From: Aplectana chamaeleonis
Taxonomy: Eukaryota > Nematoda > Chromadorea > Rhabditida > Cosmocercidae
Assembly (NCBI GenBank): GCA_029168955.1
Contig: JAPDOI010000377.1
Span: forward strand, 186,001 to 250,000
Length of the DNA: 64,000 nucleotides
Reading direction: 5' to 3'
Program-made: the position numbers and the translations under genes
In this document: in pieces, positions 28,623-40,600 of the stretch
Numbering within the stretch: position 1 is the stretch's first letter
Layout: every line of letters begins with the position of its first letter
The notes under the pieces: generated by a model
What the model was told of the DNA's origin: nothing
What the model saw: only the letters and a program-made list of their open reading frames with translations
Database searches by the model: none

Positions 28623-31600
28623 CTGCTTAATTTCTTCCGGTAACTGAGCACGCCTATCATCGGCCAACGCAAGCCATACTAGTCATTGGCCGGCACTAAG
28701 CTGTGAAGTCAGATCATGTTGACTGACTCTTTTTTGAGATAGTTCCAAGTCAAGGCCCATAATATGAAAATGAATAGGAACATCAATAAGAAATCATTTT
28801 CGAACATTTTCAGAAGCATGAATATTCCCCTCCCCCCAAGTTAAAGTATTTCGAAACAAAATTGGATTACCTCAAATCTAAGAATCATGAAAGACGATTT
28901 GAAAAATGTCAGATTGTCTACGGACACAGCAGTGATTGATGAAACAGCGTGCGTGTGGGGGACAGGAAAGGACGCAAAGACTTGAGTTGGTCAGGAAAAA
29001 AAGCTACAAAATTTAGACGAGGATATTATTTTTGGAAGTCCTCCAGTAGGTTTTTGTGAGTGTCACAGAACAAAAAAAAACAAAAATATGGATGAGGTAG
29101 CTGCCAATAATGAGTAACATTCATGCCCTACATACCAGCCTACATATTTATGAATGTCCTAGATTTTTCACCATATTATGTGCAGAAAACCATTCATTTA
29201 GTTGTGAATATGGCTTGAATTTACAAAATACGAGCTTTCAAGAGTGCGTACAGATTTTGCGAATATCGCGAGTTCCAAAAACTCGAATACAATAGACTGA
29301 AGACAATGAGAGTAGCAGAAAGAGTCTGGTCTCAATCTAGGAAATTTTCGAGATAAACTCAGAAAAATGAAAACATGCTACATGTAATATAAAGTGTAAG
29401 ATACTTGATACATTCAAGTATATAACCTTTGTATCGCATGTAACCTACCCTTATATTACAGGTAACATGCACTTATATGACACGTAACATACACTTATAT
29501 TTAATGTAACTCGATTAGAAGCTGAAGCTAGATGGTTCAAGGGTTGTAGCTGCAAGTTCAAGGCTACTAATTCAGGTACGAATCAGCAAACTTTAGGCTC
29601 TCTTGGACATCCCAGGAGCCCAAAGCTCGCTACTTCATAAGTGAAGCACTAAGCTTGGAACCCACAGCTTCATACAAGAAGCAGTAGGATTAATCTCGCT
29701 TCAAAAATATTGCATATCGGTCACTCTAATCCTCCCGACTACTCAGAACTTCCCAAACTAGCTTGTTGAGTCTAATCAGCCCGATTCCTTGTTACATGCG
29801 TCTTTACAGGGTCGAAAACGTGATTTCTTGTCACTTGCGTGTTTGAAAGACGCGAGTAACATACGAGGGGGCGTGTATGGTAAGTGCGTCTCTCGGAAGA
29901 GACCACAAAGACGCAAGTAACAAACCGGTTAGACGCAAGAAAGCTACTCAAATTGTTTATGACGAGTGCGTCTTTCACAACTGATCGATTTCTCGTCGAT
30001 AACCACTACATTTCACCTTTCCGCGATAAGTTCATGTGTTTCGCTGACAAGAAAACTTTCTCAGCTTTTCATTTTGTTCGTGATTCTGCTAACTATAATT
30101 GCTTTACTCTCTCTCTCTCTCTGTGTGTGTGTACGAATGTACGTGTGTATATATGTGCGTATGCCATAGTATACATGTGTGTATAAGTGTTTATATGTGT
30201 ATGTATGTATGAGCATGCGTGTACGTATGCGCACGTATGTATATAGCCTAGATCCCTCATTTTGAGGCGGTCGAGATAAGTCTTATATATAGGACTTCTC
30301 ACGTCAAAATCTCCTTATCACTAATATATTCTGCCATGACCGACCGCTCCGCTGTTTACTCCGCTCGGACTCATCCGAGCAAGCTAGGCTATATGTATGT
30401 GTGTAGGTAGATGTGAGTATGTGTGTGTATGTCGGTCGGTCTGTTTTCTGGCTGGTTACAGCCGATCGAACAACTATGACAGGGGCCTTGGGCGTGGTGT
30501 GCACTTCCACCGGCGAGCGGCTTGGCGAAAAGTGAAGCAGTGGGGCGCGCCTCTCAAGCATCCACGCCGCTCCGCTTTGTAAGCGGGCAGCGTCAAAACA
30601 AGGTGGTGGCGTACGACTGCTATCTTGTGCTTAGTGAAGACGGGACATTGATATTACACATGATTTTCACACATCCGGGGATTCTCAAGCATTCGCGGTG
30701 TTCGTGAAAAATAAAGAAACCGCGGAGGTGTAGACGACGAGTATACTCGTCCGCGTGTACATTCCCGCTTTGTCGGCGTCAAATCTAAAACTCAAAATCC
30801 ACATATTACATAAAAATTCGTGTGATCCGCAATTTCACGTTCTGAAATTCGGTTTGAACTTACATAGGAGACCTGATTATTTCTGGTATACAGCGCAGTG
30901 CAAAAGTGTAGGCCCACTACAAGTTTCGCATTTTCGCTAAATTACGATTAGCGCTTCACGAAAATACAAAATTCAGTTGCGCACAACTACGTGTCCACGG
31001 TGAATATCGTCTCCCATCGAAAATTGAAACAATCGGTAGCTCACTGCTGCATTAGCATTAAAAACGTACAGAAACGGGTCTAGAAGAGCCTTAGGAGGCC
31101 ATAATTTCGCTCGCGCGAGACTTCCTTGCTCACCGAAGGCCTTGCGCGAGCGGAATTATGGCCTTATAAAAGTTCTTCTGGGCCTGTTTCTGTTTGATTT
31201 TTCGGCGTTAATGTTGCAACGAACCACAGGATTTTTGATTTGCGCCGGAAAAAAAGACGAATTTTATTGTGGACACTGCCTTAAACTCTGCTGATTTTGA
31301 AAGGGTAAGGAGCCCTCCTGTTAATGCAAGGTTCGCCACGTGTGAAAATCACAGCGCGGACGAATTCCGACACAACCACCGCATTTGTTGTGCCCGTTGA
31401 TTTGATTTTCATTCATGCCAAATGATAGATGGAGAGTAAACGTTGTGGTGGAGAGAACTTCCATACACAGCTCGGAATAATAACCTCGCTACGATTGCAA
31501 AAAATTTCATCCGTTTTTAAGTCCAATTATCCGATCGGATGCACGAAATACTATCCAGTGGAGAAGTCTGGTTAAGCATAGAGTCTCTTAGCAGGAAATG

Positions 31601-37600: not shown

Positions 37601-40600
37601 CTCATTCCAACCGCTCAGTCATTTCGAATCCCTAACTTCCAAAAACCAGTTTTATATATGTTGCAAGTCTGAGCTTATCAAAATCTGCACCACAAAAACA
37701 TAAACAACCACCTACTAATTTCATTCATTGAGAACAAGGGCATGATGTTGGTCAACTAGGGAAACATCATATAATATGAGAATGCGTTTTTCCTTATCAT
37801 GATAGAGACGGTAAAGCGAGAATAATCGCTTGTGAACTTTACAAATTGGAAGAAAGGGCAGTGGGTAGCGACGTAAGGGAAGGAAGTACAGAAGGGGTTC
37901 TGAATTTTGTGCCGGTAGCAACCGACGATTTACCGCTGGCTTCTTATGTTTTGCTTTATGATCCCACATTTTGATATACCCACGGCCTGCTGTAAATGTA
38001 CGGCACCTTGCTCTGCTCAGGAGAGTACTTTCGGGTAGGCGGAAGTCAGTCACCACCGTTCTAACAAACTAATCCGTCTCAGGTAGTTGGCTCATGCAAA
38101 AGTTTCTGTGAGCGAAAACTTCGCTAGGTCTCGCTAGTTACCTCTATATCGCATGTAACCTACACTTATATTACATGTAACACACACTTATATTACATGT
38201 AACATACACTTATACTTCATATAACTTAATTAGAGCTGCAAGTTGAAGCTCGATGTTTCAAGGGTTGGAGCTGCAAATTCCAGGCTTCTGCGTCAGGTAC
38301 GAATCAGTAAGCTTTAAGCTTTCTTGGACATCCCAGGAGCTTAAAGCTCACTGCTTCATGAGTGAAGCAGCAAGCTTGGATCCCACATCTTCATACAAGG
38401 AGCATTGGGCTTAAAGGCAAGCTCCGTTCAAATTTTGACACTACCGAAATTTGGGTAAATAGATTGGGCTGGCCTAGCTGAACATCGTCTGAACGTTTCA
38501 CAAACTCTGAGTCCTTAGTTCTGGAGTGAACAGCCTCAGTCAGGGATTACTGTATTCACAGCATGATAATCATGGCTAGAATGACTGATAATTACACAGC
38601 ACTTTTGAAGAATGCGTGGACAACCGCTAAAATATGGACGATGGCCACACTTTTCTGACTTTTCTGGATCATCGGCTAACGGGAGTGGCAGATATAATTT
38701 GAAGAAGACCGGTTTTTACGCAGTTTCGCATGTTCCTTGGAATTACCTGTAGAAAGAGCAACGATTTAGCGGGAAATCTCGAAATCGAAATTCTGCCCGG
38801 ACCCTGCCTTTAAGCTTGCTTCAAATACATTGCATGTCGCTCCCTTTGATCCTCCCCACGATTAAAACGAACCATGAGGAGCGAGAGATCAACGACTCGG
38901 CCAGGGCGAGTGACCACCCGGTCGAATGTCAATCCAATGGATCTGCACTCAACGCCAAGGTATGAGGCGGCCCGTATGCTGTGCAGGTTTGCAGAAGGTG
39001 TTCAGAATGGGCCATCAGTTGCTGGAGATATTTGAATTCTGTTAAACTTATACTACATGTAATTTACTTGAGTAGAGATAAATCACATGTAACCTACATT
39101 GACGGAGATGTATTACAACTATATTGTAATCGTCTCTTATGTTACAAATATCATGTTTTCACCATCGAGAACATATTACGTGCGACATTTGACCTGCGAG
39201 CGAGGGACCGATATATTACATGTAACATACATCGGTCGAGATAATTTGTAAGTAATATACATTGGCCAATTTATATTACATGTATATCAATTCAGGCCTT
39301 TTATATTATATGTAGTATGTTTTCATTTTTTCTGAGTGTGGCGACCCGTATGCTGTGCAGGTTTGCAGAAGGCGTTCAGCATGGGACTCAGTTGCTGGAG
39401 ATATTTGAATTATGTTACACTTATACTAATACATGTAATTTTCTTGAGAAGAGATAATTCACATGTAACTTACACTGAAGGAGATGTATTACAAATATAT
39501 TGTAATCGTCTCTTGTGTTACAAGTATTATGTTTTCACCATTGAAAACATATTACGTGCGACATTTGGTCTGAGAGCGAGCGACCGATATATTACATGTA
39601 ACATACATCGGTCGATATAATTTGCAAGTAATATACATTAGCCAATTTATAAAGCATGTATAGTAATTCAGGCCTTTTATATTACATGTAATATGTTTTC
39701 ATTTTTCTGAGAAGAGCTGCTCATTTGATTACTGTTAGCGCATACATAGCTCAAGAAGAATAAGATTCACCTCAGTCACAACCTGTATAATTGCAAATGA
39801 TCTGAAAAAGTACTCGTAGATCATTTGAGCTGGGCTGACTATCAGTACGGGCCATTGACTCCGTGAAAGACCCTCCTCTCGATGAGAACGAAAAGCTGGA
39901 GCAAGTCCTGTCTCCCAATCTTCGTTGTCATCTAGTGGAGATAGGCGGTGGTGGGACTGTGAAAGGGGCCATGAGAAGGACGATGTGCTCGAAACTTCAG
40001 CTGAATAAAACAGCCCCACCGTTACAAACCTGGGCACAGAAGTACGAGAAGTAGCAATCAGATTTCTTGAACGATGGAATTTGCAAACATACTGTCTCCG
40101 AGATTGTAGCGGGGTGTACACCATCCGCACGAAGCCGGGCAAATAATTCTCATGACTGCTGGATTTCTTGTGCATTCGCCATGGGCCGTCCATGGAGCGC
40201 AGCACTGATTCATGTTGAAGCATAGCTGAATAAGCGGAGCTATATATCAGGTCCATTACAAATAGGCTTTGAGCGATTCGCAGAGCATGGTTTAGCTATG
40301 TAGCTTGTTGGCTTACGTAGCTAGCCAGCTAGAATAATGTGTTAAAGCTACATCGACGATCTCCGAAAAATTAACTATATTTTTCTTCCTGCCGGGGTCA
40401 GCCTTGGCCTAGAAAACTCACATTCCGCTGAAGAATGCTGCCACTAATCTCAATCAAGCAAAAAAAAAACAGCAAATGGACATATTGTCCTGCCCGTGAG
40501 TAGCTGTCTCGGAGCTGAGCGCCCGCACCACGCTTGCTCGTAACGTCGTCCATTGACCTTGCCACTATTGATCGATGGCGTGACACGCGGCTTGACTGCG

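Follow-up and report, generated by a model that had tools for sequence, protein, structure and literature searches.

Two described groups of DNA transposons are the closest points of comparison for the elements considered here. One source gives CACTA/EnSpm-Mirage-Chapaev (CMC) elements target duplications of 2–4 bp, and gives ISL2EU elements an AT target (A/AT/T sites) and ends that usually begin with GG (PMC4482050). Another gives the wider CMC clade CA..TG ends in most members, with exceptions such as PlavakaA (TGT..ACA ends, 2-bp duplications), and states that relatives of the ISL2EU/PIF-Harbinger (PHIS) type can also produce 2-bp duplications (PMC12730594). We analysed a stretch of 64,000 nt (hereafter, the window) from the nematode Aplectana chamaeleonis (assembly GCA_029168955.1, contig JAPDOI010000377.1, positions 186,001 to 250,000, forward strand), in which a 10-kb jumble of repeats at 29358-39711 is delimited by the ends CTCAGA and TCTGAG. 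Here the target duplication is exactly 2 bp, within the CMC range, but the ends are CTCAGA..TCTGAG and not 5′-CA..TG-3′; neither the AT target nor the GG-beginning ends of ISL2EU were found. We put the probability at roughly 0.93 that this locus holds nested DNA transposons of the cut-and-paste type, non-autonomous and belonging to two families that share CTCAGA ends.

Four nested CTCAGA-ended insertions

CTCAGA...TCTGAG termini were found on four elements within 29358-39711, each pair flanked by identical dinucleotides of exactly 2 bp. An initial annotation of this DNA had placed four such insertions here with AA, TA, CG and TG duplications, and all of these bounds and duplications are present in the sequence.

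29358..39711, + strand: outer CTCAGA element; AA duplication at 29356-29357 and 39712-39713
29358-29741, 33365-33422, 35548-35593 and 39337-39711, + strand: pieces of the outer element's own sequence, 857 bp when joined with each duplication counted once
29742..33364, + strand: unit 1, 3623 bp; TA duplication at 29740-29741 and 33365-33366
33423..35547, - strand: unit 2, 2125 bp, a member of the unit 1 family that is inverted relative to it; CG duplication at 33421-33422 and 35548-35549
35594..39336, + strand: inner (sister) copy of the outer family, 3743 bp; TG duplication at 35592-35593 and 39337-39338

The boundaries of the four elements are sharp: inverted identity over 16 nt was 13-16 just inside the boundary but 5-7 just outside it. 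The outer pieces aligned with the inner copy in collinear blocks at inner positions 1-66 (95%), 2547-2821 (83%) and 3217-3743 (88%), and three further short matches were between subterminal repeats. When inserts were removed from both copies, the outer element (857 bp) and the inner copy (865 bp after its own two inserts, described below, are set aside) could be aligned end to end, with 752 of 854 aligned bases identical (88%; Kimura two-parameter distance 0.131). Collinearity of the two copies over "about 850 bp" was the check proposed in the initial annotation, and the block order was the same in both.

Each copy can be used to read the other before insertion. The site of unit 1 is found joined in the sister copy near 38842-38876, with a 3-nt difference in length, and that of unit 2 near 38905-38938. 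The inner copy's own insertion site is intact within it at 38950-38982, as had been claimed. The claim that the second copy carries both unit sites unbroken held in that both are joined there; for unit 1 the match is not exact.

Instead of insertions, a single locus might have been duplicated, segmentally or in tandem, and inverted to give these repeats. The repeat finder reported inverted arms of 405 and 365 nt, plus shorter ones, between units 1 and 2 (complementarity 92 and 93% in the two longest) and a direct pair spaced about 374 bp near 39 kb, both of which such a history would supply. It predicts neither CTCAGA/TCTGAG at all four element boundaries nor the exact 2-bp duplications there, and it is contradicted by the sister copy, where the three interrupted sites are joined. 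Duplication and inversion without transposition was rejected on these empty sites, and we consider it very improbable. Under nested insertion the direct pair is two right ends in succession, first that of the inner copy and then that of the outer; repeat families and block alignment agree with this earlier interpretation of the seeming 374-bp tandem as two nested 3′ ends.

Two further insertions in the inner copy

The nest had been said to unpack completely into these four insertions. The four and their nested arrangement stand, but at least two more nested insertions, of other kinds, had been missed, and the full account also takes indels within units 1 and 2. In short, the facts and the nested reading were right and the insertion count was incomplete. 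The additional features of the inner copy are as follows.

35659..38137, + strand: Helitron-like insertion (putative class), 2479 bp, between A and T without duplication, 5′ TC, 3′ CTAG
35688..35783, + strand: TG dinucleotide run, 48 copies, inside the Helitron-like piece
35986..37355, + strand: 21-bp minisatellite (higher-order 147 bp), ~1.4 kb, inside the Helitron-like piece
38415..38809, unstranded: TTAA-site element, 395 bp, AGGCA...TGCCT ends; TTAA at 38411-38414 and 38810-38813

For the larger piece, the empty site is in the outer copy at 29407-29440. The joined flanks read CAAGTATA then TTACCTC, and the outer copy reads CAAGTATA then TAACCTT, with no duplication and the junction between A and T. 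By our reading, shifting the cut by 1-2 nt costs the same single mismatch. With the cut placed there, the piece has the 5′ TC and 3′ CTRR ends of Helitrons (TC...CTAG), and it shares with non-autonomous Helitrons the insertion between A and T without duplication and internal tandem repeats. Where Helitrons have a hairpin shortly upstream of the 3′ end, this piece can form a short 6-bp stem, 12 nt before its end (-5.1 kcal/mol); at z -1.02, with 25 of 200 shuffles as good, the fold was no better than chance. Neither helicase nor Rep was seen in the frames scanned, and only one copy is available. From these sequence features we read 35659-38137 as a putative non-autonomous Helitron. Since the TG run and the minisatellite sit within it, they are not necessarily part of the CTCAGA family.

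The 2479-bp difference could also be an internal deletion in the outer copy, in which case the minisatellite would be native to the family. The chance-level hairpin leaves room for such a deletion, and no family member outside the nest is at hand. Against a deletion, an A/T junction free of duplication can be fitted to the boundary, which leaves TC on the left of the piece and CTAG on its right. We regard a deletion as unlikely, though it deserves some weight beside insertion.

The smaller piece has the TTAA duplication and short inverted AGGCA ends of TTAA-site elements (piggyBac or Kolobok type); unlike those, it showed no transposase in the frames scanned. Its empty site, with a single TTAA, is in the outer copy at 29678-29712. 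Joined flanks correspond between the copies at five sites (unit 1, unit 2, inner copy, Helitron-like piece and TTAA element), so that the sister copies act as mutual empty-site references at five places.

Differences between units 1 and 2

The two units differ internally, with about 500 bp and about 800 bp found only in unit 1 relative to unit 2.

31107..31906, unstranded: ~800 bp of unit 1 absent from unit 2, with direct GGCCATAATTT repeats at its bounds
32748..33271, + strand: 66-bp subterminal repeat array of unit 1, ~8 copies, motif TGTTACATGCGTC
33462..33639, unstranded: ~178-bp hairpin-forming piece of unit 2, absent from unit 1
33694..33821: 66-bp repeat array of unit 2, ~2 copies

Because direct GGCCATAATTT repeats bound the 800-bp piece, a deletion in unit 2 has the same likelihood as an insertion in unit 1. 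Global alignment of the units covered 2064 bases at 87.2% identity (Kimura two-parameter distance 0.141) and misplaces the hairpin piece; the main BLAST blocks were at 88-94%. The divergences of 13-14% in both families compare one copy with another and give no date for the insertions.

Subterminal motifs

In CACTA elements, subterminal arrays are transposase-binding sites. Both families of the nest have repeated subterminal motifs on both sides.

29437..29510, + strand: 22-bp subterminal repeats (TACATGTAA-type), left side of the outer copy
38145-38225: the inner copy's equivalent of these repeats

Counts were compared with Markov shuffles; because the motifs had been selected visually in these very elements, the contrast is somewhat flattered. 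At up to 1 mismatch, TACATGTAA occurred 13 times in the outer element (857 bp) and 15 times in the inner copy, against shuffle means of 0.57 and 0.55; it is nearly palindromic, and most places were counted on both strands. For AAGACGCAAGTAAC, at up to 3 mismatches, there were 17 occurrences in unit 1 and 9 in unit 2, against 0.42 and 0.28 in shuffles. The core ATGTAAC was found 4 times in the outer element (0.24 expected) and 9 times in unit 1 (0.62 expected), with 8 of the 9 inside the tandem array.

The 22-bp repeats of the outer copy begin about 15 bp right of the Helitron-like site. An argument for insertion from their running across that site was therefore dropped.

CTCAGA ends elsewhere in the window

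The window contains 53 copies of CTCAGA where 31.3 +/- 5.3 are expected, and none of 100 shuffles reached 53. Every CTCAGA was paired with every TCTGAG, and a pair was counted as sharp-edged when its inverted identity fell at the boundary. Twelve pairs were sharp-edged. Seven of these had a 2-bp duplication, namely the four nest elements and the three listed here; the other five had none, and each of them reuses an end of the seven elements.

4127-6041: sharp-edged CTCAGA element, TA duplication
43325-43571: sharp-edged CTCAGA element, CA duplication
49372-49652: sharp-edged CTCAGA element, AA duplication

The duplications of the seven elements are AA, TA, CG, TG, TA, CA and AA. Pyrimidine-purine dinucleotides make up 5 of the 7, too few for a target preference to be claimed. 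Among 179 control hexamers of the same composition as CTCAGA, 3 of 73 sharp pairs had a 2-bp duplication. Under a looser rule, which asked for 17/24 inverted identity and dropped the edge test, CTCAGA scored 8 of 11, compared with 17 of 88 among the 179 hexamers; a single hexamer supplied 6 of the 17. Over all 4032 non-palindromic hexamers, CTCAGA included, the fraction was 169 of 1703. Two hexamers score above CTCAGA for sharp inverted pairs with a 2-bp match across the window, AAGGCA (8/12) and AGGCGC (8/9); CTCAGA is thus not the sole such word in the window. We read the AAGGCA signal as that of the TTAA-site elements.

When one mismatch in CTCAGA was allowed, 24 pairs were obtained, and in 13 of them the flanking 2 bp agreed. 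Three such pairs (left ends 29947, 32408 and 32094) fall within the unit 1/unit 2 inverted arms and have self-complementary dinucleotides, and in that situation a 2-bp match can arise without insertion.

Some exact pairs were set aside. At 27471-27639 (CA) and 58784-61600 (CG) the inverted arms continue outside CTCAGA (11/16 outside identity), and chance may account for the 2-bp matches. No duplication flanks the pair 47108/52945, and its right end is inside a TTAAAGGCA element (52539-53007).

Coding content of the nest

Stop-to-stop frames of at least 70 amino acids were scanned against Pfam. No transposase domain was found in the 19 of 39 nest frames scanned, nor in 3 of 3 frames scanned at 4127-6041, 6 of 19 at 53255-56800 and 5 of 12 at 58784-61600. 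At E values up to 0.1, the only matches from nest frames came from the minisatellite frame, to 37 unrelated families, and these were judged to be spurious composition artefacts. Rfam matched no family in the window. Exact end patterns were also sought in viral contigs: one pattern had no match, and another had a single match in bacterial- or phage-looking DNA, which was read as chance.

Proposed history and mechanism

The element ends, the 2-bp duplications, the empty sites and the full-length alignment of the two outer-family copies are observed, and from them we infer the following mechanism. One unseen transposase, or close kin, would recognise the CTCAGA ends together with the repeated subterminal motifs. 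It would excise the element and insert it at 2-bp staggered cuts that show little preference for sequence, and gap filling at these cuts would produce the 2-bp duplication. The outer copy came first, at AA. The two units and the sister copy inserted later inside it, in a mutual order that cannot be read, and the Helitron-like and TTAA-site insertions may have been gained by the sister before or after it landed. As no transposase was present in the scanned frames, the elements appear to be non-autonomous, and the enzyme that moves them probably lies elsewhere.

Several points weigh against this account. Only the shared ends suggest a single enzyme; no transposase was found in the 19 of 39 nest frames scanned, and no autonomous partner was found. 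The sister copy has 3 extra bases beside TA at the unit 1 site. This empty site is not letter-perfect, and the extra bases are a small divergence or repair. For the AA site of the outer copy there is no empty copy within the window. The chance-level hairpin of the Helitron-like piece belongs with these points.

Affinity of the CTCAGA elements

Movement by a CMC-type transposase is a real possibility, if somewhat short of an even chance. The elements resemble non-autonomous CMC derivatives in their short inverted ends, their 2-bp duplications of mixed sequence, their subterminal arrays at both ends, as in CACTA, and their lack of coding capacity. They are unlike them in that no transposase was seen and in the terminal sequence itself, although ends vary within the wider clade, PlavakaA being the example given above. 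The CMC transposase is a DDE enzyme with C(2)C and H(3-4)H motifs. With ISL2EU, of the PHIS type, they share a 2-bp duplication and inverted ends. Their duplications are AA, TA, CG, TG and CA and their ends begin with CT, in contrast to the AT target and GG ends of that group, and membership in it is distinctly improbable.

Neither ISL2EU nor classical CACTA fits cleanly. By this comparison the group appears to work like a CACTA-type non-autonomous element, and we do not file it as one. The several families in 64 kb, the varied 2-bp duplications, the ends unlike those usual in CACTA or ISL2EU and the family-specific subterminal arrays sharing the ATGTAAC core could point to non-autonomous members of a lineage with an undescribed transposase. 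We consider this quite unlikely. Literature searches on CTCAGA with transposon and target-site duplication, and on CACTA, EnSpm, subterminal repeats and 2-bp sites together, found nothing.

Other features of the window

Besides 38415-38809, seven TTAAAGGCA pairs were found in the window and were taken as five elements and two cross-pairings. The five, which measure 464-616 bp including TTAA, have ends similar to those of the 38415-38809 insertion and are akin to it.

8598-9153: TTAAAGGCA...TGCCTTTAA element
15179-15642: TTAAAGGCA...TGCCTTTAA element
19951-20441: TTAAAGGCA...TGCCTTTAA element
48493-49108: TTAAAGGCA...TGCCTTTAA element
52539-53007: TTAAAGGCA...TGCCTTTAA element

Two sharp-edged elements with other ends were not counted as CTCAGA elements. 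One is a 5.35-kb, sharp-edged, CTCAGG-ended element at 53255-58608 with an AA duplication, which encloses a reverse transcriptase frame (56911-57702) and suggests another nest. The other, at 54339-54630, is a 292-bp sharp-edged element with CTCTGAGAA ends (CTCTGAG) and an AA duplication. At 27420-27690 and 58697-61690, CTCAGA pairs stand at the centre of longer inverted arms; these are either long inverted ends containing CTCAGA or insertions at palindrome centres.

Pfam also identified reverse transcriptases at 6358-7353 and 12337-13497, in addition to the one at 56911-57702, a ShK domain frame (28415-28672, minus strand) and a tyrosinase domain frame (50759-51127, minus strand). ShK and tyrosinase together point to a nematode host; the tyrosinase frame matched nothing in the protein collection searched. 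The region 10814-13500 has two overlapping frames, the second with a reverse transcriptase and a sub-threshold GIY-YIG match, and it resembles a Penelope-type element.

Significance

Like other nested transposon stacks of animals and plants, this nest consists of insertions within insertions that are ordered by which element interrupts which. It is unlike them in that two sister copies within 10 kb serve as each other's empty-site reference, which makes it convenient but not a new kind. The nest is an instructive yet ordinary example of a well-known process. What was a 10-kb repeat jumble now has a readable insertion order, and ends and target duplications are fixed for at least four repeat types, as is needed for genome-wide annotation and for a hunt for the transposase.

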